Shown here one piece after another: positions 5,504 to 36,143 of a stretch of DNA of 63,820 nucleotides. The first letter of the stretch is position 1. Each line of letters starts with the position of its first letter. A program made the position numbers and the translations under genes. The stretch lies in assembly GCF_000760295.1 (NCBI RefSeq), contig NZ_JNBA01000002.1:1-63820 (forward strand), written 5' to 3'. The stretch is from Prochlorococcus sp. MIT 0701 (GTDB lineage: Bacteria; Cyanobacteriota; Cyanobacteriia; PCC-6307; Cyanobiaceae). The notes beneath the pieces were generated by a model. That model worked only from the letters and a program-made list of their open reading frames with translations, did not search any database and had not been told where the DNA came from.

Positions 5504-6949
5504 TTAGCCGCCTTTGGCTTTGCAGAGATCCTTGACGAGATCATGCTCAAAGCGCTGCTGTGGAGCACCCCAAGTTTTCCAAGATCCATTCGTGCCGGTG
5601 GTATTGAGCTTGCGCGCCGGGCAGTTCACAGCCAGATAAAGGGCTTTGCCATCTTTGTTGAGGGTTGGGGCCACGTAGCTTCCTCCCATAAACTTCCAAT
5701 TGGCCCAGTCCACTTGAAGTGACCCATAAGTGCGCCATTGCGTTTGCGAAGGCTTGACAGCAACTTGCTGGGTGGATTTGGGCTTGGATTGTGGTTTTAC
5801 AGCAGGCTTGGTGGTGGATTTAACAGTTGGTTTAACGGTGGTTTTTGCAGTCGGTTTGATGGCAACTTGAGTGGTGGATTTGGGCTTGGATTGTGGTTTT
5901 ACAGCAGGCTTGGTGGTGGATTTAACAGTTGGTTTAACGGTTGGTTTAACGGTGGTTTGTGTAGTCGGTTTGATGGCAACTGCCGTGGTGGATTTTGGCT
6001 TGGTTGTTGTTAATGGTTTGACCTGTAGTGCGAGATTGCTGCCGACTAATAACTTGTTGGGATTGTTGATCCCATTGATCTTGATCAGGGTTGCTACAGG
6101 GATTTGATATGCCCCAGCGATTTGGTTCAATGTTTGCCCTCGAGCCACGGTGTGGGAGGTGGCATTTGGATTTGCCTTAATGGCTACAGGTTTGCGCTTT
6201 GCTGCTGCTTTGGGTTTGGGAACGACAGCCCCCTGGGGCAGTTTCAGGGTTTGGCCACGTTCGACATGGTTGGCATTGGCAAGGCCATTGAGGGCGACGA
6301 GATCCTGTTGGCGAACTCGGTAGCGGCTAGCAATGATGCTGAGAGTTTCGCCACTTCGTACCGTGTGGCGATTGGCGCCAGCTCTGACTGTGCCTGATGA
6401 GCTGCCTGGCAGTTTGAGGGTCTGGCCGATGAATAAGGTATCGGCATTGGCAAGGCCATTGAGGGCGATGAGATCCTGTTGGCGAACTCGGTAGCGGGTA
6501 GCAATGATGCTGAGGGTTTCGCCACTTCGTACCGTGTGACGACTGGCTCCAGCTCTGATTCCCCCGGAAGCACCTCCCGGTAATTTCAACGTTTGGCCGA
6601 TATATAAATTGTTGGCATTGCTCAGGCCATTGAGGGCGATGAGATCCTGCTGGCGCACTCGGTAGCGAACAGCAATGGTGCTGAGGGTCTCGCCACTTCG
6701 TACCGTGTGACGGCTTGCCCCAGCTGTGACTGTGCCTGATGAGCTGCCTGGCAGTTTGAGGGTCTGGCCGATGAAGAGGTTGTCTGCATTGGCTAGGCCG
6801 TTCAGCCGCATCAAGGCCCGAAGGGATACTTGATATCGCGTTGCGATCTCCGAAAGGGTGTCACCGGGCCTCACTGTGACGCTGGCACCCCAGGATGGCA
6901 GCGGTAGAAGTGTTGTCAGGGCTAGAGCGCTAACAATGATCCGGCGCAT
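5504..6949 (-). CDS. Secreted LysM-repeat cell-wall protein
   Basis: This protein of about 481 aa starts MRRIIVSALALTTLLP, a signal peptide ending near SWGA. Five LysM modules of about 45 residues follow. Modules 2-4 are nearly identical (HTVRSGETLS ... ALNGL ... GQTLKLPG). A long Lys/Pro/Thr linker follows, made of KPTVKSTTKPAVKPQSKPKS-type repeats, and then a C-terminal domain of about 75 aa with two Cys. LysM binds peptidoglycan, so a periplasmic or wall-anchored role is likely; no catalytic domain is recognised. The open frame extends to 7012, but ATG 6949 places the signal peptide first. The near-identical repeats imply recent internal duplication. Confidence 0.85.
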   Translation of the reverse strand: MRRIIVSALALTTLLPLPSWGASVTVRPGDTLSEIATRYQVSLRALMRLNGLANADNLFIGQTLKLPGSSSGTVTAGASRHTVRSGETLSTIAVRYRVRQQDLIALNGLSNANNLYIGQTLKLPGGASGGIRAGASRHTVRSGETLSIIATRYRVRQQDLIALNGLANADTLFIGQTLKLPGSSSGTVRAGANRHTVRSGETLSIIASRYRVRQQDLVALNGLANANHVERGQTLKLPQGAVVPKPKAAAKRKPVAIKANPNATSHTVARGQTLNQIAGAYQIPVATLIKINGINNPNKLLVGSNLALQVKPLTTTKPKSTTAVAIKPTTQTTVKPTVKPTVKSTTKPAVKPQSKPKSTTQVAIKPTAKTTVKPTVKSTTKPAVKPQSKPKSTQQVAVKPSQTQWRTYGSLQVDWANWKFMGGSYVAPTLNKDGKALYLAVNCPARKLNTTGTNGSWKTWGAPQQRFEHDLVKDLCKAKGG

Positions 6950-11518: not shown

Positions 11519-12511
11519 AGATGTTGTCAGAGGCTCTTACTGACGGCAATGTTCGTATCAGGCTGCCTTTGAGGTTGTTACATCAGCAGTAGAAAGCGTT
11601 GTTTAAAGGTTGGTCCTTTTCGTCTTGCTTTGGAGGGTTGTGGTGAGCACAGTATTTAGTTGTGGTCCATCCCAGGTTCTTTCTGTTTGTCGCTTCAGCT
11701 TTAAGAGCGACTTAGATCCTTTCTCATCCCTATAGAAGGACAGAGCAGTGCTTGACGGTTGATACACACTGTTCCCGCTATCGGTTGCGGCGATGTCGAA
11801 GCAGCTTGTGCCGGTAATGGAGTCATAACTGTCGCTGCTGTCTGAATCTTGCTCAAGACTGCTTGCAGCAGAGTTATTTTCAATAGGGTGACTTGTCAGC
11901 AGAGCTGGAGCCAGCAAGGCTTAACTCTGTAGAGGTTGCTGCGATAGACGCTGCTGCTGCTGAAGGCGTTGTTGTCGTTGCAGGACTGTCTAGTGGCATT
12001 GCAGTAGACGTTATTGCTACTTCAAGCCTTTCTAGATCGGCGTAGTGGTGTGATTGAATTTTCAAAGAAATGATCAATGCCTACATGCTTGGTTGCGATA
12101 TCTAAATTAATGTCGATGTTTTTTGAGGAGACGGCGATCGAGAAGGGTCTGATCGCTACAGGTGTGAATGCGTCATGGCTGCGCATGAAATGTTGCTTGT
12201 CGCTGATGGATTCAATATTTGGCAGATGTGACGTCTTGCGCCAACTTTGCTCTTGAAAGTCAGTTAAGGCTTCGCTAGGTGCGTCCTCTGGCAGCTGTTG
12301 TGATCGGGGGCTCCTCTCGTCTTGTTTGCTTCTTCTATGATCGTCCGCTCAGACGAGTTTGAGCAATGGAACAATGGAACAATGGAACAATGGAACAATG
12401 GAACAATGGAACACCGTTTACATATTGATCGCGTTCCATAGGGTTGGCAGCGCCTTGAAAAAGACCTCCTCGCTTTCTTAAGCTGGTATTGACTTCCCAG
12501 GAGCCAATGAA
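11519..12511. other. Gene-poor region with decayed-looking sequence
   Basis: Almost 1 kb lies between the AGCS symporter and the next small gene. Open frames at 11603-11917 and 11880-12077 on the minus strand are low-complexity (Ser/Thr/Ala-rich), lack recognisable domains and overlap in different frames. I treat them as chance or remnant sequence. An 8-bp tandem repeat is present at 12364-12411. No tRNA, riboswitch or terminator was recognised. Confidence 0.5.
12364..12411. repeat. 8-bp tandem repeat, six perfect copies
   Basis: The unit CAATGGAA is repeated six times without a mismatch, about 100 bp upstream of the small membrane-protein gene at 12512. Its perfect conservation suggests recent slippage, so copy number may vary between cells or strains. 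There are no spacers, so it is not a CRISPR array. Confidence 0.95.
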
Positions 12512-14432: not shown

Positions 14433-15043
14433 GTGCTCTTGCTGTTGCTAAGAAGTCAAACGCCACGATCAAATGGCTGGCGGCTCCCACCAGTGATGCT
14501 TGGTTGGAGCAGGCGATTGCTCATCCGCTCGAGCTGCTGATTGATCACGCTCATTGCGAGCGCAAGGCGGCGGGTGCCGTCGTGCAATTGATGTTCCGCT
14601 ACTTGTGTGAGCCTGGGCTCGGAGAAGTTCTCAGCCCCTTAGCAAGAGAGGAGCTGGAGCATTTTGAGCGTGTGCTCACGTTGCTTAAGGCCAGAGGGCG
14701 GTATCTGGAGCCTCTGGCTGCACCTCCTTATGGAGCAGTGTTGGCCAAACAGATCCGTAGGGATGAACCGCAGCGCATGCTCGATAGTTTTCTGGTGGCA
14801 GGGCTGATTGAAGCCCGTAGCCATGAACGCATGTCGTTGCTTGCCACCCACCTAGCTGATCTGGAGTTGCGTCAGCTCTATGCAGATCTCCTGGCGAGTG
14901 AGGCGCGTCATTTCGGCCTCTATTGGAGGCTCTGTGAGCAGCGTTTTCAGCGTGAGCTGATCATTGCTCGTTTGCAGGAGTTGGCAGCGGTGGAGGCAGG
15001 GATCCTCGCCAACTTGCATCCTCAGCCGCGCATGCATAGCTGA
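14429..15043 (+). CDS. miaE: tRNA-(ms2io6A37) hydroxylase
   Basis: This 204-aa ferritin-like diiron monooxygenase hydroxylates the isopentenyl group of ms2i6A at position 37 of tRNAs. Diiron ligands are visible in [32 protein letters not shown] and [10 protein letters not shown]. Length and motif order fit MiaE. The last codons (Arg-Met-His-Ser-stop) lie inside the 18-bp repeat that also occurs at 29843-29860, so this gene's 3' end marks the left edge of the inserted island. The gene itself is intact. Confidence 0.92.
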
Positions 15044-15047
15044 ATCC
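15030..15047 (+). repeat. Island-flanking direct repeat, left copy (attL-like)
   Basis: GCATGCATAGCTGAATCC covers the last four codons and stop of miaE plus 4 bp. The same 18 bp recur exactly at 29843-29860, 14.8 kb away in the same orientation, next to mtnD. This is the pattern left by site-specific integration or short-homology insertion at a gene 3' end. Confidence 0.85.
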
Positions 15048-15676: not shown

Positions 15677-15799
15677 ATGAGTGAAGAACAACTCAAGGCA
15701 TTTATCACCAAGGTTCAGGCAGATAGCTCACTAAAGGAACAGCTCAAGGCAGAAGGTACAGACCCTGTTGCTATTGCCAAAGCTGCTGGTTGGATATGA
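15677..15799 (+). pseudogene. Truncated Nif11/prochlorosin-type leader peptide
   Basis: The 40-codon frame begins MSEEQLKAFITKVQADSSLK and continues QLKAEGTDPVAIAKAAGW before a TGA stop. This matches the N-terminal half of Nif11-type prochlorosin (ProcA) leaders. Those leaders normally continue with a second helix, a Gly-Gly cleavage site and a Cys/Ser/Thr-rich core, none of which is present. I read it as a 3'-truncated precursor gene. A 35-codon basic frame starts at 15796 with an ATGA overlap; it has no recognised family and may be chance. Confidence 0.7.
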
Positions 15800-16388: not shown

Positions 16389-17633
16389 ATGAGAATCGCC
16401 ATCCTTGGACTTGGGACTGCGGGAGCTATTGCAGCACGGATGCTGAAAAGCAAATTCAAACGCTCTGCTATCACGGTGTTTCACACGTCCACCATTCCCA
16501 CAACCGGCGTGGGAGAAGGAGGAGGGCCATGGTTGAAGCAGTGGCTGGATGAAGAAGGCATCAGTCGGGAGCTGATGCAGAGGGATGTCAAGGCAACAAC
16601 CAAACAAGGTATTCTTTTTGTAGACTGGGGACAGCAACCAAAACAAATTCTGCATGCATTTACCCCGAAGGGACAAGCACACTCATATCATTTCGACGCC
16701 AAAAGGCTGAGCAAGATTCTGCTAGATGGTCTTGAGCTCGACATTAGGAATCAGGTCGTGGAAATAGTGGAGAGCGAGAAAAAAAATAAAGAACTGATCC
16801 ATACAAAAGAATCAGGGATCGAAGCATTCGATTACATTATCGATTGCAGAGGAATCCCATCAGCACATCACAGTGACCAGGAAGAAAATTGCAGCCCACT
16901 GATCGCCAGCGGGGCTCTACTGCAAACTTGTGAGCCTCTGCAAAGCGTGCATGAAGATCTAAACAACTTTCAAACCACTAATGCGATTGCGAGGCCCCAC
17001 GGCTGGATTTTCTTGATACCACTGCAAAGCCGAACATCAATCGGTTACATCCATGACAGCCACATCACCAATACGGAGGCAGTAAAACAAGACCTAAAAA
17101 TGTATTTAGCGGCAAGCAATTTGACACCAATAAGCCCAACAAGAAACATTCAATTCAAAACACATATCAGCACACAATTTCTCAAAAATCGTATTTACAA
17201 GCTGGGAAACCGTGCTGCATTCATAGAACCACTGGAAGCAACAGCCATTGAATCAACAATCCTTCATTGCAAGCTGATCACAGCACACATTGCAAAAAGG
17301 AAGAGAAATCAGCCAACAACAAAGGAAGAGGTAGAAATGGAAAATAACTTCAACAGAGTAATACTCAACAATATGGAACGAATAGCACTATTTGTTAGTT
17401 GGCATTATTCGCAAGGCTCAATTTACGACACACCCTACTGGTGTAAAGCAAAGGCGAATCACGAGATCTTGAAAGAGAATAGAGTACACCCGATTATTGC
17501 CAGAGATTTCGATAAGTGGATTGAGAAGGGATTACAGAGACAGCCTAGAAAAGTGCCTAGTCAAGGAAGGGACAACATGTTCTTTGCATGGAGCGAACAA
17601 TCGTTTGCTGCAATCGCCAATATACTTTCATGA
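16389..17633 (+). CDS. Flavin-dependent tryptophan-halogenase family protein
   Basis: This 414-aa protein starts MRIAILGLGTAGAIAARML, an FAD-binding GxGxxG fold. Halogenase-type marks follow: TIPTTGVGEGG near residue 38, a Lys in KQGILFVDW that aligns with the catalytic Lys region, HGWIFLIPL in place of the usual W-x-W-x-I-P motif, and FIEPLEATAIES near residue 275. Family members use FADH2, O2 and halide to chlorinate or brominate Trp, free or in peptides. The Phe in the WxWxIP block is unusual. It is shorter than typical Trp halogenases (about 500 aa), so activity is uncertain. ATG 16389 is preferred over a start at 16368. It overlaps the next gene by ATGA. Confidence 0.75.
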   Translation: MRIAILGLGTAGAIAARMLKSKFKRSAITVFHTSTIPTTGVGEGGGPWLKQWLDEEGISRELMQRDVKATTKQGILFVDWGQQPKQILHAFTPKGQAHSYHFDAKRLSKILLDGLELDIRNQVVEIVESEKKNKELIHTKESGIEAFDYIIDCRGIPSAHHSDQEENCSPLIASGALLQTCEPLQSVHEDLNNFQTTNAIARPHGWIFLIPLQSRTSIGYIHDSHITNTEAVKQDLKMYLAASNLTPISPTRNIQFKTHISTQFLKNRIYKLGNRAAFIEPLEATAIESTILHCKLITAHIAKRKRNQPTTKEEVEMENNFNRVILNNMERIALFVSWHYSQGSIYDTPYWCKAKANHEILKENRVHPIIARDFDKWIEKGLQRQPRKVPSQGRDNMFFAWSEQSFAAIANILS

Positions 17634-18817
17634 TTAGGGACGAATGCCGCCAACTTACTCTGCACATCGGGCTTCCAAAGGCAGGCAGCTCAACAATTCA
17701 GAAATTCCTCCATACACAAAAACATCAACTAATAAGACAATCTCTGAACGTCCCTAAATGCTTGGGAGCATTCTCACATTTCAAGCTGGCCCTAATGTTC
17801 TACAGCAGCACACACAAGCCAGACTTTTTAGCACGCAACAATCAACTAATCTCAGCGGCAGAAAGACTAATATTCAAAGCGAGGCTAGAACAACAATTAG
17901 AACAAGAACTTGGCGATTCGAATATTCGCCGTTGGATCATCTCAAGTGAGTTTCTCCAGCACTGTTTGCAGGAGCATCATGAGATTCAATCGTTGTCTCT
18001 GCTTCTGGGACAATTTTTCGAGACCATTAACATACTTCTCTATGTACGAAGCCCGCTCGAAGCTGCTACATCCATGATGTCGACGGAGGTAAAAATGGGA
18101 AAGACCCACTTCGCACTTGAAAAGCCAGAATACTACAATATTCTTTGCAACCATCAACGTACAATCACAACATGGCAATCAGCATTTAGGCCCAAAAAAC
18201 TTATTGTACGAGACTTCAATAAGCACAAAAAAGAAAATACATTGATTCGTGATTTTTGCGATCTAATTGAATTGGACTGGCAAGAAGATTACGCATTATC
18301 GCCACGGGCTAACGAGAGCCTTACACTTGATGGTCTGAAAATAATCAGCAGCCTAAACAAACACCTAAAGCAAACGAAAACGAGAGTCGCCACAAGACAA
18401 CGATTCAGGTTTATTGATCATGTAAGCAGAAATTTTCAAAATTCCGAACATTACACGCCATCATTAGAACAAACAGAACAATTTCAAAGCTACTACAAAG
18501 CCTCAAATGATTGGCTCAAGCAGCAAAGTGGTATTGACTATACCGACATACAATCAACAAGCCTTTCAAAGCAAAACAAACCAGCAACATATTCACTAGA
18601 CTGTAATCAAGAGCCTACCATCAGCGAAGAAGAATCACTTCATATATGGGAAACGTGGCGAAAAAACCAGGAGATCAGAACTAATCACCAAGATGTCACA
18701 TCATCCCAAGCATCAGAGGTCCAATCACTAGCTGAATCCCAGGCATCTGAGGCCCAATCACTTGCAGCATCAGCAGCTTCAGACACAGCAGAACTGATTG
18801 ACTTGGCAGCTGAATGA
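17630..18817 (+). CDS. Sulfotransferase-like protein
   Basis: This 395-aa protein has the PAPS-binding 5' loop LHIGLPKAGSSTIQKFL near its N-terminus. A 3'-phosphate-binding-type motif, LLYVRSPLEAATSMMSTEV, lies around residue 140. PAPS-dependent sulfotransferases transfer sulfate to sugars, lipids or proteins; the acceptor here is unknown. It starts at ATG 17630 inside the stop region of the halogenase-like gene, so the two are coupled. The last 44 residues are a low-complexity Ser/Ala/Glu repeat (SQASE) that overlaps the opposite-strand gene by 133 bp and may be an extension gained by loss of an earlier stop. Confidence 0.7.
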   Translation: MIRDECRQLTLHIGLPKAGSSTIQKFLHTQKHQLIRQSLNVPKCLGAFSHFKLALMFYSSTHKPDFLARNNQLISAAERLIFKARLEQQLEQELGDSNIRRWIISSEFLQHCLQEHHEIQSLSLLLGQFFETINILLYVRSPLEAATSMMSTEVKMGKTHFALEKPEYYNILCNHQRTITTWQSAFRPKKLIVRDFNKHKKENTLIRDFCDLIELDWQEDYALSPRANESLTLDGLKIISSLNKHLKQTKTRVATRQRFRFIDHVSRNFQNSEHYTPSLEQTEQFQSYYKASNDWLKQQSGIDYTDIQSTSLSKQNKPATYSLDCNQEPTISEEESLHIWETWRKNQEIRTNHQDVTSSQASEVQSLAESQASEAQSLAASAASDTAELIDLAAE

Positions 18818-20478
18818 ATGTCAGCAAAAGCATCATTGACTAGATCTTCAGCATAGGCAGAGACTTCATTCATAACATCACTAACATAGGCACTCACCTC
18901 TGTGACAACCCAGGACACAAATTTTGGGCTAGTGAGAAACTCCCCAAGGTTCAAAAGAGAGTTTACGCTATCAACAAAATTAGACCATGAAGGATTCTCA
19001 AAGAATTCAACAAACTCTTCACCAACATTTTCAAATATTTCCGTCATAGCCTTCCATGAATCGGGCTTGTCAAAACTGTACTCAAAATTCAGATCGAAAG
19101 AAGGTCTCCCAACATCGATTCCATCTTGCAAGGAAAAATCAATCGTCCAACTCAACTCCGGGTCGATAGATGCAGAAAGAAAGGCCCCATTATATTCTGG
19201 ATTGACAATTAATCCCGCTATCATTTCCAACTGAAGGCCTGAAGAAGAAATGTTATAAGAACTTATACCTTGCTCACCAGGATTCTTCTCCAAGGTCAGC
19301 ATGATACTTGTACCAAGAGTTGCTGAAAGCTCTAAATCATAGCGAGGAATCTCCTTGGTATAGGTTCCCTCCAAGCCAAGCGTAAGATTAAAATCTAAAT
19401 CAGAATTTTCCAAAGAAAGACTGTACTCACTTTTGCCATCTCGTTCAATTGAAGGATTGAGTGAACCATCAATACTGAATTTCAGAGTGATATCACCGTA
19501 TGCCCCATCGTAAAGATCAACTGTTTCACTACTCCAGTTCACAGGAATCGAAGTCTTCTGATCAATCTCCTGACGTAGCCCATTATCTAAACCAGCCCGA
19601 ATTGGATTGAGGAAACCCAAATTAATATCGCCAGGCGTATGAGAAGATGTTTCCGGAGAGACGACCGAAGCAGCTAGAGACGAGGAAACCTCATGAGATG
19701 ATGATACGCTCTGTTCGGAGATTTCGGATGTACCGCGATTCAATCCATCCAAATCCCGTTTTTCTGAAGTTAAATCAGACCTTTGAGCAAAACCCTGTGA
19801 TTCCCATGGCTGGCCGTATTCCAACCGATCTTGGCCACGATCAGGTTGCTGACCATCTCCCAAAAAATCCGACCTTAGTTCCTGAGAACGTTCTGATTCA
19901 AAAACATCATCTGAAAGTGCTAGTGGATTAGATAGCTCGGTCTGGGCATCTGGGCCGCCACTCGGGTCAACCAAACCATCGGCATCCACATTCAAGGGAT
20001 GACTATCATGCTGTTCATTACTCTCCTCAACGGGATCAAATTCCAACTGTCTTGCACGAAATTGAGGGTCTGAAGAGGGGCCGGAAGGCTGAAAGTGACC
20101 AGGTCGAGCGGCACCACCTGCAACAGAGCGAAGGGTTCCCTGAACCTCGAGCAATTGCAGACGAATCGAAGCGTGAACATCATCAGCACCTAGCTCGCGA
20201 GCACTGGCAATGATCGTTGAAAAGGGGATGACCGTACCATCTCTACGCCGCTCTTCGTCATCAATCCATGAAGAAAATGTATAGGTCTTGCCCTCTACGT
20301 CAAAGCTGAGGGTATCCAAAGCAGCCCAAATCTGAAATTTGTCAAAACCCAGTCTTGTCATCAGCTGTCCGCGGGCAGCACGGTTAGGCAGGGCAAAGAA
20401 GCGGCGACGCAATGCTCTTCTATGCTGAAGAAGGAGAATAAAAGAGAGAAACTCATCTAGCGCAACCCGGGCAGCCAC
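18685..20478 (-). CDS. Large protein with Nif11-like leader; candidate export substrate
   Basis: This 597-aa protein is the likely cargo of the island. Residues 5-55 (LDEFLSFILLLQHRRALRRR ... LGFDKFQIWAAL) resemble a Nif11-type leader. Residues 115-122 end TLRSVAGG, with Leu at -7 and Val at -4, a double-glycine site for C39 peptidases. Then come an acidic, Ser/Gln-rich, probably disordered stretch (about 123-290) and a beta-rich segment (about 300-470). The helical tail ends in Trp/Asp/Ser repeats (DWASDAWDSASDW ...) with five Trp in the last 30 residues. The start is GTG 20478, since a stop lies 15 nt upstream. No domain of known function is recognised. Confidence 0.65.
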   Translation of the reverse strand: MAARVALDEFLSFILLLQHRRALRRRFFALPNRAARGQLMTRLGFDKFQIWAALDTLSFDVEGKTYTFSSWIDDEERRRDGTVIPFSTIIASARELGADDVHASIRLQLLEVQGTLRSVAGGAARPGHFQPSGPSSDPQFRARQLEFDPVEESNEQHDSHPLNVDADGLVDPSGGPDAQTELSNPLALSDDVFESERSQELRSDFLGDGQQPDRGQDRLEYGQPWESQGFAQRSDLTSEKRDLDGLNRGTSEISEQSVSSSHEVSSSLAASVVSPETSSHTPGDINLGFLNPIRAGLDNGLRQEIDQKTSIPVNWSSETVDLYDGAYGDITLKFSIDGSLNPSIERDGKSEYSLSLENSDLDFNLTLGLEGTYTKEIPRYDLELSATLGTSIMLTLEKNPGEQGISSYNISSSGLQLEMIAGLIVNPEYNGAFLSASIDPELSWTIDFSLQDGIDVGRPSFDLNFEYSFDKPDSWKAMTEIFENVGEEFVEFFENPSWSNFVDSVNSLLNLGEFLTSPKFVSWVVTEVSAYVSDVMNEVSAYAEDLVNDAFADIHSAAKSISSAVSEAADAASDWASDAWDSASDWTSDAWDDVTSW

Positions 20479-20560
20479 GAGAATCCAACATTAGTTAATA
20501 AATCGTAGCTACAGACCTGAATAGAGACCAAAACGAGTAACAAACTATAGATTCAAGTAA

Positions 20561-22348
20561 TTATTCAGATCCAAGAGTCAAAAAACTGGAATTAAAGTAC
20601 AGACCAGTAAGAGCAATTAACTGGAAATAAGCAGAAAAAAGACTTTCATAAGTAGAACTATAAGATGAAAGTAACGTGGAGAGCATTTGCTGAGACTGAA
20701 AAATCACAGAATAATCATCCAAGCCTGCATGCATTCGTAAAATGTAGGCTTTGTAGGCCTCAACCTCAGCTTGATAGCTGGATTCAATTGCATGAAGAGC
20801 AGGCAATGTATAACGAACGATCTCGATGCTAGAGATTGCCTCTGCGAAAAGAGACTGTTGTTGAGCAAGGCTTTGTTGCTGATAAGAGCGAGCTTGCGAT
20901 TGATAACTACGAGCCTGCTGAGCAGCAGAAAAACCGTCAAAAATATTCCATGTAAAATTCAAACCAATGTAGTTTGACAGTTGCGTTGACCATGCGCCAG
21001 AGGGTGGTTCAGGAGGTGAATACTGCTGACTCCCCTGAGTGCCGATATAAGTAAGATAACCGAGTACAGATATCAACGGCCAGTATCCGCTATAGCTTCC
21101 TGCAGATAAGTGGGCGTATTGCTTTGCCTGGTGCTGATAAGCAATAATACTGGGGTATTGGGATACCAGGCGCTTAGTTTGTTCTAAACTTACGCTCCAC
21201 TGCTTAGGAAGAGATAAGATCTGTGGAAATATCAAATTAACAGCAGAATCCTTAATCATTGCCAAAGCTTTAATCTGCTCGAGAGTAGATTGATGGCTGG
21301 CAACAGCAGAAAGAAGCTGAGCGCGAGATGATTCAAAGTATGATCGCTGAGAAAGAAAGATTGGGTTTGCGATTCTTCCCTGCTTCAATTGACGATCATA
21401 GATTTTCATCAGTTCAAATGAAGAAAGACAGAGAGAGAGAAGCGTTGAAATTTGATATTCAGTCGCCTGAAGTTGGCTATAAAGTTTTGCCGCCGAAAGA
21501 ACGGTTTGTCTTGCCTGATCAAGTGCCTGAAATTGCGCTGATGTCAATTGATCCTTTGAGGCAGCAATTGATGATGAGCGTGCTAGATTAAATAACTGCC
21601 AGTTCAAAGTAAGAACAGGGTAGGCCTGCAAATAGGAAGATGTTTGCGTATAAGGGCTCACAAGCCCTGAATCATTATCTGGAAGAATCGAGGATCGACC
21701 CCCACCAATTGCTGTAGATGGCTGAAAGGACGTGCCACTAGCTGAGGGATTCACAGCGAAAGGACTTGAAGACCCATAATTCTGAGTATTGGAAATGTTG
21801 ACAGATAACAGTGAGCCTGAGGTAATAGCAATTGAAGGATACCAAGAACTGAATGCTTGACGAACCAGCCAACGGTTGGAATCAACACTATCGAGAGATG
21901 AAGCAATAGAAGGCGAAAGTAAAACTGAACGCAACAAGAGATTTTTAAATCCAAGCATCGATAGGGGTTGCCCTATCTGAATGGGTCGACAACGCTGATT
22001 GATCAGTGAATAATCTGGCTTCTTTGAAAGAGCTGAATCACAAAGGAAGTTATACCCCTCAAACTCAATAGGGTTAAAAGAATTAATGTCATCAATGTTG
22101 ACAAGCTCAATAGCTGGCTTCAAGGAGGATGGAATACTCCTAATCAGAGAAGAGAGTTGATTGTAGGAGTGAGCTCCTGGAGAAATTTCAACAGCTAAAG
22201 GCGATACGTCGATGAGCTGCTTTACTTCGGAAGCATGCAATAAAGCAAAGCATTGCTGGGAAGCAAGCAAAAACAGCAAGCCCAATGCAAATGGTTTACT
22301 GCGTCCACTCATCAGCAGCGCGTTACGCCGTTCTAACAGTAGCGACAT
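20561..22348 (-). CDS. TolC-like outer-membrane efflux protein
   Basis: This 595-aa protein has an N-terminal hydrophobic signal (FALGLLFLLASQQCFA). After a pre-domain of about 140 aa come two TolC-type repeats of long amphipathic helices rich in Gln, Ser and Ala with beta segments (YPVLTLNWQLF; YIGLNFTWNIFDG). It ends FNSSFLTLGSE, typical of outer-membrane factors. It would form the exit channel for the adjacent HlyD/ABC exporter. It is divergent from the HlyD gene with a 120-bp spacer. Met13 is an alternative start. Confidence 0.8.
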   Translation of the reverse strand: MSLLLERRNALLMSGRSKPFALGLLFLLASQQCFALLHASEVKQLIDVSPLAVEISPGAHSYNQLSSLIRSIPSSLKPAIELVNIDDINSFNPIEFEGYNFLCDSALSKKPDYSLINQRCRPIQIGQPLSMLGFKNLLLRSVLLSPSIASSLDSVDSNRWLVRQAFSSWYPSIAITSGSLLSVNISNTQNYGSSSPFAVNPSASGTSFQPSTAIGGGRSSILPDNDSGLVSPYTQTSSYLQAYPVLTLNWQLFNLARSSSIAASKDQLTSAQFQALDQARQTVLSAAKLYSQLQATEYQISTLLSLCLSSFELMKIYDRQLKQGRIANPIFLSQRSYFESSRAQLLSAVASHQSTLEQIKALAMIKDSAVNLIFPQILSLPKQWSVSLEQTKRLVSQYPSIIAYQHQAKQYAHLSAGSYSGYWPLISVLGYLTYIGTQGSQQYSPPEPPSGAWSTQLSNYIGLNFTWNIFDGFSAAQQARSYQSQARSYQQQSLAQQQSLFAEAISSIEIVRYTLPALHAIESSYQAEVEAYKAYILRMHAGLDDYSVIFQSQQMLSTLLSSYSSTYESLFSAYFQLIALTGLYFNSSFLTLGSE

Positions 22349-22468
22349 GTCGAAAGAAGAGCAAGTAAGCCTCGTGGATCATTAATAAACAGCAGCTGAA
22401 CTCACAGCAACATCCAAATTTTGCAGCTAAGTGATGGCAAGTGTGGCCAAAACAGCTAACTTGCACAA

Positions 22469-23686
22469 ATGAGATTCAATACAAAACGAATCAGAAGGAT
22501 ATACCCCTTCCTTGAGTTGGTTACAAACCAGCCATTTGCTTTGGCTAGCTATGGCCTGGGTGCCTTTGCTGTCTGCTTGCTGATCTGGGCATGCCTATAC
22601 AAAGTCAATGCCACAGTGAATGGAATCGGTTTCACTCTTAATCAAGGCAGGAATGTGCGTGCTTATACCCGTGTCGCAGGGCGAGTCACCAATGTATATG
22701 TCAGTACAGGCCAGCAGGTAGACCGCAATCAAAGACTCGCCAGCATCGACAATCGTGTGCAGGAAATAGAAGCTAACTCATATCAACAAATTAAATCGCT
22801 TAGCAATAATCTCACGCCCCAACAGGTTAACGCAAAGGTAGTGGCAACCCGCCAGAGCATTGATGGTATGGCGAGAAGCAAGATTGCCCTTGGAGAACAG
22901 TTGAAACTCCATCAAGCACAACTAAGTCGATACCAAAAACTTTTAGATAATAAAGATATCAGTCAGGCTGAGTACCTCAGTCAACTCAATGAAGTTGAAT
23001 CAATAAAAACTCAGTTGTTACAGCTACAGGGATCAATCGAGGAAAAACAATCAGACCTGCTTCAGCTTGAAATATCGGCGAAATCAAGCCAGATCACAAT
23101 CAACAGTAATGCAGCTCTGTCCGCGAATCAATCGAGCCTATCTAAGGACATTGTTGCAAATGCCAAAGGAGTCATCAGCGTGATCGATATTAGTGAAGGT
23201 GACTACTTACAAGAAGGTGTAACAATTGCCACGATCTCTCTAGAAACAGGGCCTGCTCAGGGAGTCTTTTTAGTGTCAGCGAAAGCTGCTAAGCGAGTCA
23301 AACCCAACAATCTCTGTTTTTTGAGTCCAGCAGAAACACCAGCATCGAAGTATGGATATCTACTCTCCAAAGTTAAGTCGATTGGGAAGTTGCCAACCAA
23401 TCCTCAGGAACTAACAAGAATTCTAGGCCTTGAATATACAGCAAATGCCCTTTTCGATCAATTAACAAACCGTGCTATAGCAGAAGAATTTTCAGCATTT
23501 CCATATCTACTGGTGGTCTCATTGAGCCGCACAGAGCAAGGACATCTGAAATGGACCACGACAAATCCACCTGAATGGGGCTTCAGTGCCGGTGGTGCTG
23601 CCAGTGTGGATTGCGTATACGACACTTGGTCTCCTATTACATACCTGATTCCACTTATGAGAAGAAATCTAGGATACGGGAGGTAG
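22469..23686 (+). CDS. HlyD-type membrane fusion protein (NHLP/Nif11 export type)
   Basis: This 405-aa protein has one N-terminal membrane helix (LGAFAVCLLIWACLYK). A barrel-sandwich half follows (AGRVTNVYVSTGQQVDRNQRL), then a coiled-coil hairpin (about residues 90-220) and a second lipoyl half (GVISVIDISEGDYLQEG). It would bridge the ABC exporter and the TolC-like channel across the periplasm. The arrangement HlyD, C39-ABC, second ABC in one operon is the layout known for NHLM/NHLP-type (Nif11 and nitrile-hydratase leader) export systems. It ends 3 bp before the next gene. Confidence 0.8.
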   Translation: MRFNTKRIRRIYPFLELVTNQPFALASYGLGAFAVCLLIWACLYKVNATVNGIGFTLNQGRNVRAYTRVAGRVTNVYVSTGQQVDRNQRLASIDNRVQEIEANSYQQIKSLSNNLTPQQVNAKVVATRQSIDGMARSKIALGEQLKLHQAQLSRYQKLLDNKDISQAEYLSQLNEVESIKTQLLQLQGSIEEKQSDLLQLEISAKSSQITINSNAALSANQSSLSKDIVANAKGVISVIDISEGDYLQEGVTIATISLETGPAQGVFLVSAKAAKRVKPNNLCFLSPAETPASKYGYLLSKVKSIGKLPTNPQELTRILGLEYTANALFDQLTNRAIAEEFSAFPYLLVVSLSRTEQGHLKWTTTNPPEWGFSAGGAASVDCVYDTWSPITYLIPLMRRNLGYGR

Positions 23687-23689
23687 ATC

Positions 23690-25837
23690 ATGAGCCTACA
23701 GATATTTGATCAAAATCGTCAAATGAAAACACCCTTAATCTTCCAATCCGACGAGTCGGAATGTGGACTAGTATGTCTAGCGATGTTATCTGCCGTAATA
23801 GGTCAACCATACTCCCTGCAAGAAATCCAAGGTGCGTATGGATCATGTCGTGGTGGTGTTAATGCTGATCAATTGATTCTTCTTGCCGAACACTTTTCCA
23901 TCCGTTTGGTTCCCTATTCAATCAAAAAAGGTATTGACAATTTAGAGAACCTTGAATTTCCGTTCATTGTTTGCTGGCAACGCAATCATTTCATATTAAT
24001 CGTCGATAGGGAAGGGGATCGATTTATTGCTCATGATCCGGCATCGGGTTTCCTAGAGATTGAAAAGCAGGCACTGGTCAGATCGATTCAAGACTATGTA
24101 TTAGTGGGGCGAGCTATCACATTAGGAAAAGTGCAAGAAGTTCCAAAAGGGAGGGCAAAAGTTGATCCGATATGGCTGGTCAGCTTGAAACAGAGTTTTC
24201 CAGCTTCAGTGCTCACAATGGTGAGCATTTTACTAGTTGTCATTGCAACTTTTGAACTGGCTAATGCACAGATACTGAATATCTTCTTTACCTGGGTTGT
24301 TGAACTTGGCCTTCCGCAATGGAGCCGCCCCCTCGCGATCTCTCAATTTATTATCGCAATCGTGAGTGGCCTTGGTACGTTTCTACTGTTTGGATGCGTC
24401 TGTCTGAGCATCAGTGAACTAAGTCTTAAACTAAACAAATATTTCTATAGAAAGCTAATTCGATTGCCTGAAAACTATTTCTTAAGTCGTCATACAGGCG
24501 ATATCAGTGCAAAGTTTGAGAGTCTTGATCGGCTGATTCTAGCCAATCAGTCATCCCTAATTACACTGCTAATTGCATCAGTCAATTTAATTATTCTATT
24601 CGCAATCCTTCTTATAACTTCCTTTTGGCTATTTATCTTTATCGCTATTCTGATGACGGCGATTGCAACAACTTCATTGGCAATGATACCCATACAAGTT
24701 GATTTGCAGCAGGAAAACCAACAAGCAGCGGCAAAAAATCAAAGCGATCTATATCAAATAATTGGTGCATACGAGCAAATCAAGATGGAGGGCCAGGAAT
24801 ACTTTCGTCTTTCTCGTTATGCAGGAAGTCTCATTGAGGCTCAACAGTCTCAAAACCTTCTTGATATAACGTATTCACAGCAAGGATTATTTCTTGGCTT
24901 GATTGATAGCTTGTCAACAGTCGTGCTGCTGTTTGCGGCATCAATGCTCATCCTCAATGGACAAATTACACTAGGACAATATGCGGCACTAGATGCGCTT
25001 GTTAGCTTGTCTTTGGCACCAATGTCAAGTCTGGCAAGTATCATTCGTAATCTTCAAGAAACTATGATTGCTTATAGAAGACTTGAAGACCTTACAACAA
25101 CGCCTCTTGATTCCAGATACAATCCAGACTTCAACAAGAGCTTTTCAACAATTTCAAAGAAATTCAATAAAAACATTACTCTCGAACTACAAGATGTTAG
25201 CTTTAAATATTCTTTGTTCGGCCCGAAAATACTGGATCATGCATCGCTAAGAATCGATCGAGAAAACTTCCCGGTCATGATCAAAGCTCATCGGTCATCC
25301 GGAAAATCGACCCTGGGAAAATTACTGGTAGGTCGTATCCAAGCAAATACAGGCAGCATTCGGATTTTTGGTCAACAAGTAAATCAGCTTTCAGGTCATA
25401 ATCTGAACAGATTGATCTTAATAATTAATTCTGAACCCCTTTTATTTCAAAACACAATACTGTTTAACCTTGATCCATTCCATCAAAGCAGCCACAAAGA
25501 GCTCATCAACATTATAGAAAAACTTGGCGTCAGCCAATTAAACCTATTCCGAGATCTTAATCGCCAAATTGGTAACTCTGGAAGTCTTAGCGGTGGGGAA
25601 AAGGTGATCATTCAGGTAATTCGGGCGATTGTTAGGAATCCTTCCGTTCTCGTGGTGGATAATGTAATGGACAGCTTACCGAACGAACTTCGGAAAAGAT
25701 TTCTCCTTGGTCTTCTTTCTTATCAAGAACAGACTATCTTTCTTGTAGATCATGATTTAGAGCTTGGTGATGTAATGAAAAAGATTTGGAGCTTTGAGCG
25801 CGGAGTATTACGAACAATAGAGGAGTCAGATCAATAA
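23690..25837 (+). CDS. ABC exporter with N-terminal C39 peptidase (NHLP-type ABC1)
   Basis: This 715-aa protein begins with a C39 peptidase domain with complete active site: Gln19, Cys25 (QSDESECGLV), His100 (RNHFILIVD) and Asp116 (AHDPASG). It should cut leaders after Gly-Gly. A six-helix ABC membrane domain (about 160-450) and a nucleotide-binding domain follow. Walker A is changed to AHRSSGKST (first Gly to Ala) and the signature LSGGE is intact. Walker B is VLVVDNVMD, with Asn in place of the catalytic Glu, so its own ATP site should be poorly hydrolytic. The partner is the next gene, 4 bp away. Confidence 0.85.
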   Translation: MSLQIFDQNRQMKTPLIFQSDESECGLVCLAMLSAVIGQPYSLQEIQGAYGSCRGGVNADQLILLAEHFSIRLVPYSIKKGIDNLENLEFPFIVCWQRNHFILIVDREGDRFIAHDPASGFLEIEKQALVRSIQDYVLVGRAITLGKVQEVPKGRAKVDPIWLVSLKQSFPASVLTMVSILLVVIATFELANAQILNIFFTWVVELGLPQWSRPLAISQFIIAIVSGLGTFLLFGCVCLSISELSLKLNKYFYRKLIRLPENYFLSRHTGDISAKFESLDRLILANQSSLITLLIASVNLIILFAILLITSFWLFIFIAILMTAIATTSLAMIPIQVDLQQENQQAAAKNQSDLYQIIGAYEQIKMEGQEYFRLSRYAGSLIEAQQSQNLLDITYSQQGLFLGLIDSLSTVVLLFAASMLILNGQITLGQYAALDALVSLSLAPMSSLASIIRNLQETMIAYRRLEDLTTTPLDSRYNPDFNKSFSTISKKFNKNITLELQDVSFKYSLFGPKILDHASLRIDRENFPVMIKAHRSSGKSTLGKLLVGRIQANTGSIRIFGQQVNQLSGHNLNRLILIINSEPLLFQNTILFNLDPFHQSSHKELINIIEKLGVSQLNLFRDLNRQIGNSGSLSGGEKVIIQVIRAIVRNPSVLVVDNVMDSLPNELRKRFLLGLLSYQEQTIFLVDHDLELGDVMKKIWSFERGVLRTIEESDQ

Positions 25838-25841
25838 CCCC

Positions 25842-27902
25842 ATGAGAAACACCGAGCAATACTGGCTAGACCATTGCGATGCTCTCAACCTGATCACGCA
25901 GGATCCGGTTTTATGTATTGGCATGAATACAATGGAAATAGATTTAATCAAGAATCAGATAGACAGATTGCAACAACAAGGTAAAGAGGAGTTGATGCAC
26001 TTCATGAATCAAAGAATGAAATTGATAGCTTTAAAGTTCGAAGTAACGCCAACCATGAAAGCGCTGGCATCTCTACCGATGAAAGTTCTCATAATTGACA
26101 ATCAAACTCATAAATGGTGCTATCTGAACTCTTATCAAAGCTACAGAAAATTTATTCAAATTCATACTCATATTCAACCAAACTGTGAATTTTATAGTCT
26201 TACCTCTTCATTGCCTAAGCGTGCTCTTACAAAACTTGAACTGTCCTGGTGGCATATCTTCGCACGCTGGCAGGGCTATTCACTCACATTAATTGGATTA
26301 GCTATTTTCACACTGCTATCAACATTGCCGGTTCTGGCAATTGGACCGATTTTCGATCAAATCATTCCAACCGGTCAACTCAACCAACTCATACTAATTT
26401 GCTGCGGTTTATTTGCAAGTCAGATAATTGCTACATTCTTTAAAACAATATCAAATATCTCGATTGGTATTGCTCAATCTTCTATCGACTTTCATGGATT
26501 AATTGGTCTAATGGAACGCTATCTCTCAGTCAGGCCAAGTTCAATCCCACAACTCTCACTAAGCTTATGGGAACAAATTTTTAAAACTGCACTTGCTTTT
26601 ACCTCAAGTGCAAGAGCACTACTAATTTCATTGCCGATTGCTTTTTTGACGATTGGAATATACATGGTAATTTTTGGATTCTATCTCCTAGAACCGCGAC
26701 TTGTCCTCTTGATCCTACTATTGAGCTCACTACCAGCTTGGATATCACTCCTTTCAGGTTACATTACAGGGCGCATATCATTTCAACTAATTCGGACACA
26801 AGCGGAATGCAATCAGCTGATCGTTGATACAATCCGGTCAATAAGCGAAATACGCTCGCTAAGCTTAGAAACAAGCTATGATCAGACATTAATAAACAGT
26901 AAACGAAAGTACTTCAAGACCATTATTTCAATCAATCAGTGGAGCAGTTATGGAATACTCTTTTCAAGGGTTTTTAGCTCATTGCTTGTAGCATTAATCT
27001 TATTTAGCTATTCGCAAAATCTAGGCTTATCACAAGGCAAATACTTGGTAATGTTTACGGCTTTTTCGTTTATCTCATCAGGTTTTTCTCAGGTAGCTGA
27101 AGCAATTTCTTCATTGATGATTGCATTGCCAACCTACTTCAGCAAGAACAGCTTGAGAGGAATGACGCAGTTTGAACAGCTTCAACAGCCATGGATGCAA
27201 ACAACCGTTGATACACGCAAGGTCCGTGAGATTGAAACTATTGAATTGAACCAAATCGCCTACAAATATACCAATTCTAGATTCAATATTATCAGTAATT
27301 TAAACTTTATATTTGAAAAGGATAAAAACTACGCGATCACTGGCAAGCCAGGATCAGGAAAATCAACTTTGCTGAAACTGATGGGTGGATTACATGAAAG
27401 TAGTGAAGGGAATATTATTATAAACAATACCCTTCTTTCTGAAAATCAGGGAATCAAACACTTTACTGATATCATGTTCATACCCCAGATTCCAGTTTTG
27501 TTTGGGAGTACGATTCGCGATTTTCTTGACCCATCTGAAAGCTTTGATGATGAGTTGATTTCTAGAGCCTTGAATGATTGTGATTGCTTAAACGTCATTG
27601 AATCTCTAGCAATGGGTTTGAACACAAACCTCAGCGAATCCTCTCAAGACTTATCCAATGCAGAGCTTCAATGCCTGCATGTTGCTCGTGTTGTACTCGG
27701 CAAGCCCACGATTCTGCTAACCGATGAGCCAACTTCCTATCTAGATGAGATCAGTCATTTGAGTTTGATTGATGCACTTAATAAAGCCAGTTCAATCCAC
27801 ATTACCAGTTTGCACCGACTCTCGGCTCGCAATTGCTTTGATGCAATCATCGACATGAATTTGTATAACCAAAATCCGTACACAATACAAGAGTCGTTAT
27901 GA
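25842..27902 (+). CDS. ABC exporter permease/ATPase without peptidase (NHLP-type ABC2)
   Basis: This 686-aa protein has a soluble N-terminal part of about 130 aa with no C39 residues. A six-helix membrane domain and an ATPase domain follow. Walker A (GKPGSGKST, about residue 500) and Walker B with catalytic Glu (ILLTDEPTS) are intact, but the signature motif is degenerate (LSNAE for LSGGQ). This is complementary to the preceding ABC protein, as in asymmetric heterodimeric exporters with one working ATP site. Its stop overlaps the ATG of the cupin-like gene (ATGA), so the operon is tightly coupled. Confidence 0.82.
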   Translation: MRNTEQYWLDHCDALNLITQDPVLCIGMNTMEIDLIKNQIDRLQQQGKEELMHFMNQRMKLIALKFEVTPTMKALASLPMKVLIIDNQTHKWCYLNSYQSYRKFIQIHTHIQPNCEFYSLTSSLPKRALTKLELSWWHIFARWQGYSLTLIGLAIFTLLSTLPVLAIGPIFDQIIPTGQLNQLILICCGLFASQIIATFFKTISNISIGIAQSSIDFHGLIGLMERYLSVRPSSIPQLSLSLWEQIFKTALAFTSSARALLISLPIAFLTIGIYMVIFGFYLLEPRLVLLILLLSSLPAWISLLSGYITGRISFQLIRTQAECNQLIVDTIRSISEIRSLSLETSYDQTLINSKRKYFKTIISINQWSSYGILFSRVFSSLLVALILFSYSQNLGLSQGKYLVMFTAFSFISSGFSQVAEAISSLMIALPTYFSKNSLRGMTQFEQLQQPWMQTTVDTRKVREIETIELNQIAYKYTNSRFNIISNLNFIFEKDKNYAITGKPGSGKSTLLKLMGGLHESSEGNIIINNTLLSENQGIKHFTDIMFIPQIPVLFGSTIRDFLDPSESFDDELISRALNDCDCLNVIESLAMGLNTNLSESSQDLSNAELQCLHVARVVLGKPTILLTDEPTSYLDEISHLSLIDALNKASSIHITSLHRLSARNCFDAIIDMNLYNQNPYTIQESL

Positions 27903-28597
27903 CCATTTCCACTGCCAAAAAAGAGCCCTATCTTGAGACAATTAGCACCAAAAAATTGAATGCTCTTTTCAACTTGATTAACCATCGAACATTGACTGTT
28001 CAGGGTTCCTACGATGCCTATGTGAACATTAGCGATGGTCGAGTTGATCTAAAGGGTTTTCTCAATGAGATGATTAATTTGCCACCACAGTCATCAGATT
28101 TTTATGTATCTCACCCCTTTGTTTTTGAGGGCAATGTTCTAAATCATAACATTTACGGTGCTTTCGGTGGCCCTCAAACCATTGACTTAATAGCACAACA
28201 AATTCGGATGGCTCGTCTTTTTGCGGGCTGTTCAGGCACAGGCACACACGTTCATCAACATACTCGAGCCTGCTTTGAGTGTCTGATGGGGGAAAAAATA
28301 TGGTTTTTAGCGCCACCTACTAAACGCAATCATTCTGTTCTGTCCCAATACAATCACGAGCTTTATGGAACCAGATGTCAATCCTTAAATGACTGGTTTC
28401 GACTTGAATTGATTGACAATCTCTGGCCGCATTTGGAAGGAGCCAAAATTATGCGTTCTAAAGCCGCTGAATGCCTATACATTCCTGATCGATATTTCCA
28501 CGCCACCCTTAATCAATCTGCATGTATAGGGATCTCCTACTCTTGGAGAGCCAGCCTTGTGACATTTGATCATGACGCCCTGCTCCAGAACAACTGA
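27899..28597 (+). CDS. Cupin/JmjC-like oxygenase family protein
   Basis: This 232-aa protein has the core SGTGTHVHQHTRACFECLMG followed by EKIWFLAPP, which matches the metal-binding strand of cupin_8/JmjC hydroxylases (GTxTxxHxDxxxN...GxKxwxLxPP). A distal His occurs in IPDRYFHATLN. The usual HxD metal pair appears as H-Q-H, so the iron site would be three-His or altered. Relatives hydroxylate protein side chains with Fe(II) and 2-oxoglutarate. As the last gene of the export operon, it may modify the exported protein. Function is inferred from fold motifs only. Confidence 0.65.
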   Translation: MTISTAKKEPYLETISTKKLNALFNLINHRTLTVQGSYDAYVNISDGRVDLKGFLNEMINLPPQSSDFYVSHPFVFEGNVLNHNIYGAFGGPQTIDLIAQQIRMARLFAGCSGTGTHVHQHTRACFECLMGEKIWFLAPPTKRNHSVLSQYNHELYGTRCQSLNDWFRLELIDNLWPHLEGAKIMRSKAAECLYIPDRYFHATLNQSACIGISYSWRASLVTFDHDALLQNN

Positions 28598-29787: not shown

Positions 29788-29842
29788 ATTTAAGAAGACA
29801 GTTCAAGGCATTCATCACCAAGGTTCAAGCAGACACCTCACT
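29788..29842 (+). pseudogene. Dead Nif11/prochlorosin-type leader fragment
   Basis: The sequence GTTCAAGGCATTCATCACCA and its flanks align with the leader at 15677 (CTCAAGGCATTTATCACCA). The ATG has become ATT and the next codon TAA, and the reading frame is shifted. Similarity stops at about 29841, directly where the right copy of the 18-bp repeat begins. The gene therefore appears cut by the island junction. Confidence 0.7.
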
Positions 29843-29860
29843 GCATGCATAGCTGAATCC
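29843..29860 (+). repeat. Island-flanking direct repeat, right copy (attR-like)
   Basis: GCATGCATAGCTGAATCC is identical to the miaE 3' end at 15030-15047. It lies 8 bp before the stop codon of convergent mtnD. It is out of context here, as no miaE reading frame precedes it, so it marks the right edge of the inserted segment. Confidence 0.85.
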
Positions 29861-35041: not shown

Positions 35042-35272
35042 TCATCCGTTCATTTCTTTTCTATAGCCACTTCTAAAATATCCACGCTCATCATGTGAAA
35101 GCTCTGTGCCTGAGTATTCACAGATGCCTTTCTCTAAGTCTTCCATCGTGACCGTATATCCTGCAGCTTTTGCAAGCATCAAAACATCCGTTCCCTCGGC
35201 TTTTAGCTTCTGCTCTAAAGACGGGCACGCACGCAGCATGGTCATGAATGCTTTGAGATGTGCTTCAGACAT
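35042..35272 (-). CDS. Nif11 domain protein (orphan, no core peptide)
   Basis: This 76-aa protein starts MSEAHLKAFMTMLRACPSLE and continues LKAEGTDVLMLAKAAGYTVT with MEDLEKG, a clear Nif11-type leader domain. The rest (ELSHDERGYFRSGYRK) has no Gly-Gly site and no Cys-rich core, so it is unlikely to be a lanthipeptide precursor. It may be a stand-alone Nif11 protein or one that has lost its core. It aligns with the truncated leader at 15677. Confidence 0.8.
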   Translation of the reverse strand: MSEAHLKAFMTMLRACPSLEQKLKAEGTDVLMLAKAAGYTVTMEDLEKGICEYSGTELSHDERGYFRSGYRKEMNG

Positions 35273-35919: not shown

Positions 35920-36057
35920 ATGAAATACATCGAAGACCATCACTTCCACTGCAGAGAAGATGAGGTAACAGATCTATCCACTCAAGCCAGGAAAATAAAT
36001 AAAGCGGTAGAAGATCATCTTGATTGGATTGATGAGATCATTCATTCATCGTATTGA
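35920..36057 (+). CDS. Small acidic hypothetical protein, doubtful
   Basis: This 45-codon frame (MKYIEDHHFHCREDEVTDLS ...) is acidic and helical, with several His near the start. A longer frame begins at 35863. It ends at the position where the upstream-most TTG of the large repeat protein lies. No family is recognised. Confidence 0.3.
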   Translation: MKYIEDHHFHCREDEVTDLSTQARKINKAVEDHLDWIDEIIHSSY

Positions 36058-36143
36058 TTAACCAACACGTTAAAAGTAATCAAACACTGTATACATATAG
36101 TATTCAACTATGCTATCATTCGAACAAGTTTTTGTTGGGTCAT

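Follow-up and report, generated by a model that had tools for sequence, protein, structure and literature searches.

A 14.8-kb insertion in the 2.59-Mb genome of a picocyanobacterium probably constitutes a mobile island that is self-contained and devoted to tailoring and secreting one large, ribosomally made protein. It lies within the window analyzed here, a 63,820-nt stretch of DNA, and carries eight genes encoding a halogenase-like, a sulfotransferase-like and a JmjC/cupin_8-like protein, a 597-aa cargo protein, and the TolC, HlyD, ABC1 and ABC2 components of an exporter. The ORF map agreed with the initial annotation on the order and orientation of all eight. For seven of the eight ORFs the expected family was recovered; in three of these cases the match was weak or fell short of the curated cut-off. 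The initial annotation had read the island as a large-protein version of a RiPP system with a Nif11 leader; a self-contained system for one large protein with a double-Gly leader was supported, as the unit recurs in three genomes, is mobile, leaves no gap for a short precursor and has sister exporters beside large leader proteins, but the Nif11 leader was not.

The island has a G + C content of 42% and is bounded by perfect 18-bp direct repeats. The left copy, GCATGCATAGCTGAATCC (15030–15047), coincides with the 3′ terminus of the MiaE gene, and the right copy (29843–29860) adjoins an acireductone dioxygenase gene. The insertion site is empty in two congeners (G029 and G098), where the flanks are contiguous and 95–97% identical and the 18-bp site is present in a single copy, with one base differing in G029. 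The flanking repeats together with the empty, contiguous site demonstrate that the eight-gene block is a mobile insertion. The G + C content was 42–45% within the three known islands vs about 54–61% in their surroundings. No recombinase was recognized among the long ORFs of the island. A truncated 40-aa Nif11 ORF (15677–15799, plus strand; PF07862, E value 1.9e-11) lies inside the left edge, and a second Nif11 remnant (29798–29842, plus strand) was found at the right edge, where repeat D1 matches 15688–15747 at 80% over 60 nt. Descent of the cargo gene from a phage or plasmid was considered and rejected, as no match was obtained among phages, plasmids and viral contigs.

Among 400 genomes of the family, the cargo gene was present only in the genome of the window and in G252 and G282, which belong to another genus, and the three islands span two genera. 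No further cargo gene was detected in 31 genomes of the genus of G252 and G282 or in 340 genomes of the class. Roughly 700 genomes were searched with the cargo, and the contigs of a named genome collection contained no relative of it. Both G252 and G282 carry all eight genes in the order and orientation of the window, with protein identities of 46–67%, and the anticipated co-occurrence of the genes as one unit was borne out in all three genomes. The islands of G252 and G282 are collinear over a 12.3-kb block with 75.6% DNA identity, and their immediate surroundings differ. As the largest gaps in the conserved core measure 82 and 120 nt, the other neighbors overlapping or lying a few nucleotides apart, a separate short precursor gene would not fit, and none was found within this core in G252, G282 or the window. 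The 120-bp intergenic region (22349–22468) separates the divergent tolC-cargo and hlyD-ABC1-ABC2-jmjC genes in a conserved arrangement and is presumed to be a promoter region.

The cargo gene (18685–20478, minus strand) is one open frame whose product aligned end to end with its orthologues in G252 and G282. A comparison of these two orthologues gave a dN of 0.12, a dS of 1.42 and a dN/dS of about 0.09; the frame is under purifying selection. The protein starts with a leader; a linker of variable sequence, a conserved core, and a helical tail rich in Trp follow, the last residue being Trp. The leader comprises codons 1–122 (20113–20478, minus strand), with the Gly-Gly codons at 20113–20118. 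The double-glycine site of the initial annotation is present: SVAGG forms residues 118–122 (codons 20113–20127, minus strand), VAGG recurs unchanged in both orthologues, and the motif is located where conservation drops. Pairwise identities among the three orthologues drop from 75, 73, and 85% in the leader (residues 1–122) to 29, 30, and 64% in the linker (residues 123–300), and amount to 75, 74, and 89% in the core (residues 301–470) and 63, 63, and 81% in the tail (residues 471–597). The C39 cleavage site is predicted after G122, which would yield a mature protein of 475 aa and 51.9 kDa. The calculated pI is 9.7 for the basic leader and 4.05 for the acidic mature part, and the cargo of the window contains no Cys. 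Tryptophans occur in the tail at positions 575, 580, 586, 591, and 597, a spacing of 5-6-5-6, and the final residue is Trp in all three orthologues.

A single-sequence model of the cargo had a mean pLDDT of 41.9, with the helical tail as its sole confident part, and the leader model was also poor (mean pLDDT, 57.3). RTX nonapeptide repeats were not detected in the cargo with the HemolysinCabind model, which did find another RTX protein in the window. The leucine at position −12 and the LXXXXL motif of other leaders were not clearly present in the cargo leader. Matches of the cargo tail to PHROG tape-measure proteins were put down to helical-repeat composition rather than homology. SwmA/SwmB motility and HetC were considered as possible links, and the literature yielded none.

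The island encodes a full C39-ABC/HlyD/TolC exporter, as had been annotated. The TolC-like outer membrane channel (20561–22348, minus strand; PF02321, OEP/TolC, E value 1e-26), identified also by its orthologues, is encoded on the strand of the cargo gene and upstream of it. The HlyD-type periplasmic adaptor (22469–23686, plus strand) had NHLM_micro_HlyD as its best NCBIfam match (E value, 8.6e-27; 94 bits; cut-off, 156.2). ABC1 (23690–25837, plus strand), a C39 peptidase-permease-ATPase, matched PF03412 (E value, 1.2e-19) and PF00664, and its best NCBIfam match was NHLM_micro_ABC1 (E value, 6.7e-76; 256 bits vs a cut-off of 853.3). ABC2 (25842–27902, plus strand), a permease-ATPase, matched NHLM_micro_ABC2 (E value, 4.3e-43; 148 bits vs a cut-off of 709.4). 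As regards an NHLM affiliation, NHLM models were the best for ABC1 and HlyD, but HlyD, ABC1 and ABC2 all fell below the equivalog cut-offs.

The catalytic triad of the C39 domain of ABC1 (C25, H100, and D116) aligned with that of PCAT1 and is invariant in the three islands. ABC1 keeps the signature LSGGE, its Walker B Glu is replaced by Asn, and its H-loop His is lost. In ABC2, the Walker A, Walker B and H-loop motifs are intact, and the signature is degenerate (LSNAE or ISHAE). These complementary defects are common to the three islands. In a heterodimer, one ATP site would therefore be complete and the other not. The motifs argue directly, at the sequence level, for joint action of ABC1 and ABC2 and imply one asymmetric heterodimer.

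The next-ranking relatives of the HlyD protein (E value, about 1e-32) were found in G261 and G192, where tolC, hlyD, ABC1, and ABC2 are clustered. Beside the exporter, G261 encodes four large proteins (445–552 aa) and G192 encodes one (861 aa), all with long leaders ending in AGG. A leader-profile search recovered 15 large-protein loci in 4 of 390 genomes and also matched named MAGs of freshwater picocyanobacteria. The 13 leaders taken in full have 118–162 residues and end in AGG without exception, and in most of them a hydrophobic, glycine-rich stretch follows. The mature sizes of the large AGG-leader proteins measured are 32.5–81.5 kDa, and these proteins had no family match in Pfam or NCBIfam. 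In a tree built from a small sample of 20 ABC proteins, the ABC1 proteins of the island, G261, and G192 formed one clade with 100/100 support, as did the ABC2 proteins (100/100); the ABC proteins of G245, whose cluster has short precursors of about 113–151 aa, lie outside both clades. Since the nearest exporters found adjoin large proteins with long AGG leaders, a large-cargo branch of NHLM-like exporters is likely. The ATPase-site defects of the island are absent from G261 and G192. Homology of the leaders between the island and the G261/G192-type proteins is not claimed because 4 of 150 shuffles equalled the hhalign score. It is conceivable, although short of probable, that a picocyanobacterial C39-ABC1/ABC2 lineage is specialized for whole proteins (32–82 kDa when mature, among those measured) whose long N-terminal leaders would be cut at AGG, and that at least one of its branches halogenates or sulfates the cargo before export, as a protein-scale counterpart of RiPP systems.

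Three candidate tailoring enzymes are encoded in the island. The assignment of the first as a flavin-dependent, Trp-halogenase-like enzyme of 414 aa (16389–17633, plus strand) was upheld by PF04820 (E value, 1.3e-46) and by its orthologues, and its ATG start at 16389 is consistent with its relatives. It aligned with solved flavin-dependent halogenases, is about 100 residues shorter than these, and keeps the positions of the catalytic Lys and Glu of PrnA and RebH. In all three orthologues, WIFxIP replaces WxWxIP. The second enzyme, a sulfotransferase-like protein of 409 aa (17588–18817, plus strand), had no Pfam sulfotransferase match at E values up to 1, and its annotation is only partly sustained, by motifs and profile comparison. 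LHIGLPKxGSST and LLYVRxP..A..SMMST read as PAPS-binding motifs, and a three-sequence profile scored 30.3 in hhalign against Sulfotransfer_3, above the maximum of 22.3 in all 60 shuffles. The last approximately 50 codons of this ORF are a read-through antisense to the cargo gene that occurs in this genome only. The third protein (27899–28597, plus strand) had been called a cupin-like oxygenase; Cupin_8 and JmjC matches were obtained, but these were weak (E values, 1.5e-4 and 3.8e-3) and below the curated cut-offs. It has HVH...H in all three orthologues where JMJD6 has HID...H, and the HxD/E...H triad was not found; therefore, its function as a standard hydroxylase is doubtful.

Halogenation of the cargo tail, sulfation, and hydroxylation are plausible as judged from the sequences. 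The Trp-rich tail with its invariant terminal Trp plausibly fits a Trp halogenase, and W597 would be the foremost candidate site. The Lys and Glu positions are kept, but WIFxIP and HxH deviate from the standard motifs, so that the proposed chemistry is no more than plausible. The same deviations, along with the weak sulfotransferase assignment, would agree with a different reading, in which export proceeds as proposed and the three enzymes produce or modify another molecule, or act elsewhere as a hydroxylase or other oxidase, and are simply co-inherited. The best NCBIfam match of the halogenase-like protein, far below the cut-off, was the flavin monooxygenase QhpG, and no homologues of the three enzymes occur in the cluster stretches of G261 and G192 that were read, so large-cargo export can do without them. 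This reading is nevertheless somewhat unlikely: all three genes are kept in 3 of 3 islands with adjoining gaps of a few nucleotides at most, and the cargo tail suits a Trp halogenase.

The leader itself allows a further alternative, namely that it is a diverged and extended Nif11 domain, which would make the island an N11P system whose core is very large. The initial annotation had described a Nif11-like N-terminus, which could not be substantiated, as none of the three cargo leaders matched Nif11 in Pfam or NCBIfam (PF07862/TIGR03798). The Pfam Nif11 model found 24 matches in the genome, two of them within the window and none in the cargo. In hhalign, leader residues 2–46 aligned in register with the start of Nif11, with a score equalled by 1 of 150 shuffles, and a VAGG ending is also found in many Nif11 leaders; however, the hhalign probability was 3%, from three sequences only. 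In the poor model of the leader, two strands follow the first helices, and a PDB search with this model gave no match at an E value of 0.001. A remote relation is possible from the alignment, and we consider a Nif11 domain of this kind unlikely. Considerably less probable still is a scenario in which short Nif11-type precursors from other parts of the genome use the exporter and the cargo stays in the cytosol or is otherwise secreted. The abundance of Nif11 matches in the genome, the truncated ORF and remnant at the island edges, and the small substrates typical of known C39 transporters (PMC8277102) would suit such a role, but the edge pieces are truncated and lie outside the shared 12.3-kb block, the conserved core of the three islands holds no short precursor, the cargo gene is always located between tolC and the sulfotransferase gene, and the sister exporters likewise adjoin large AGG-leader proteins.

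The reading that we prefer is an island dedicated to its own cargo. The 122-residue leader would be recognized in the cytosol, and the precursor would be tailored while the leader is still attached. The most likely tailoring step would be modification of the Trp-rich C-terminal tail by the Trp-halogenase-like enzyme; the sulfotransferase-like and JmjC-like proteins may modify the precursor too. The ABC1/ABC2 heterodimer would use a single consensus ATP site, formed by the Walker motifs of ABC2 and the signature of ABC1. The C39 domain of ABC1 would cut after G122, and the acidic protein of about 52 kDa would exit via HlyD and TolC. That the secreted protein acts at the surface or envelope, against neighbors or grazers, is only a guess. 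The number of islands (three), the poor cargo and leader models, the leader motifs, and the non-canonical halogenase and JmjC motifs count against this model.

PCAT1 is a homodimer that transports a small substrate. The ABC1 of the island resembles PCAT1 (PDB 4ry2) in domain order and in the positions of the catalytic Cys, His, and Asp, whereas the island has two unequal ABC proteins with complementary defects. According to a review, transporters with an active C39 domain appear to be restricted to substrates of up to about 10 kDa, which counts against the export model; large cargos are associated there with a C-terminal signal combined with a degenerate C39-like domain (PMC8277102). Like the proposed pathway, RTX type I secretion (HlyB/HlyD/TolC) takes a large protein out in a single step by way of ABC, HlyD, and TolC, but its signal is C-terminal and its C39-like domain degenerate (PMC8277102), whereas the island has an N-terminal leader, an intact C39 domain, and no RTX repeats. 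The island and the related picocyanobacterial clusters combine an intact C39 domain with whole AGG-leader proteins, a misfit to the 10-kDa picture if these are exported. If export is true, the 10-kDa rule for active-C39 transporters falls, and abundant marine phototrophs would have a natural means to cleave and export full proteins under the guidance of a leader, and possibly to halogenate them at specific sites.

RaxST-RaxA-RaxB, in which a sulfotransferase is paired with a C39 exporter, provides a precedent for sulfation before export (PMC4216712). The raxX-raxSTAB genes of Xanthomonas (PMC4216712, PMC6637879) likewise place a sulfotransferase gene beside a C39-ABC/HlyD exporter with a leader-bearing substrate, but have a 60-residue precursor and one ABC protein, compared with two ABC proteins and additional halogenase-like and JmjC-like genes in the island. 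The halogenase SrpI is guided by a leader, brominates the C-terminal Trp only, and is active on a maltose-binding-protein fusion (PMC10286304, PMC10858898). SrpE/SrpI and the island have in common a flavin-dependent halogenase and a long-leader substrate ending in Trp, and the accepted fusion is protein-sized. SrpE differs in its short natural core, azoline rings, and proteusin leader, and the island enzyme differs in its WIFxIP motif and shorter length. NHLM/NHLP export systems (TIGR03794, TIGR03796, TIGR03797; PMC2887384) also bring together HlyD, C39-ABC1, and a second ABC protein with a leader ending in GG, and NHLP cores near LanM enzymes have a mean of 26 residues (PMC2887384). The island components, in contrast, score well below the NHLM cut-offs, and the cargo has about 475 aa with no short core and a leader without a family match. 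No published description of the island or its sister clusters was found in the part of the open-access literature that was covered. Set against these systems, the island amounts to a variation on NHLM-like C39 export in which a whole protein as probable cargo and three candidate tailoring enzymes are brought together on mobile DNA.

In the window genome, the sulfotransferase-like ORF (17588-18817, + strand) and the gene of the 597-aa cargo (18685-20478, - strand) converge and overlap by 133 bp at 18685-18817. The ancestral stop of the sulfotransferase-like ORF has been lost, and the frame now reads through in antisense across the Trp-rich tail of the cargo. The stops of the two genes lie approximately 2 bp apart in G252 and G282, the two picocyanobacterial genomes of another genus carrying the same eight-gene block.

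Each island edge carries one truncated Nif11 gene (15677-15799 and 29798-29857), the right-hand one being joined exactly to the 18-bp repeat. These two remnants may mark the mode of island integration. A 76-aa ORF at 35042-35272 (- strand) was identified as a true Nif11 (PF07862; E value, 4.3e-12), and it lacks a Gly-Gly ending.

An 885-aa protein (36054-38711, + strand), consisting largely of TLNNSGTLNNSGT-type repeats and ending in RTX calcium-binding repeats (PF00353; E value, 6.8e-10), is likely an ordinary type I secretion substrate. Its gene sits within a second low-GC stretch. Tandem repeats elsewhere included 6.2 perfect copies of the 8-mer CAATGGAA (12364-12413) and, at 5760-5947 and 6272-6799, arrays whose periods are 102 and 171 bp.

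A LuxR-family regulator was found with both large-protein exporter clusters (L068:15057-15950 and L069:8754-9449), and the N-terminal parts of the two regulators resemble each other; the island has no such regulator. Freshwater picocyanobacteria also encode a family of 331-600-aa proteins (loci L068, L083, L084, L091, L094, L095, and L096), with up to seven members per genome and no Pfam or NCBIfam entry. Their leaders contain the motif W-x-W-L-D-[DE]-E-G-Y and end in AGG, often followed directly by a hydrophobic Gly-rich segment.
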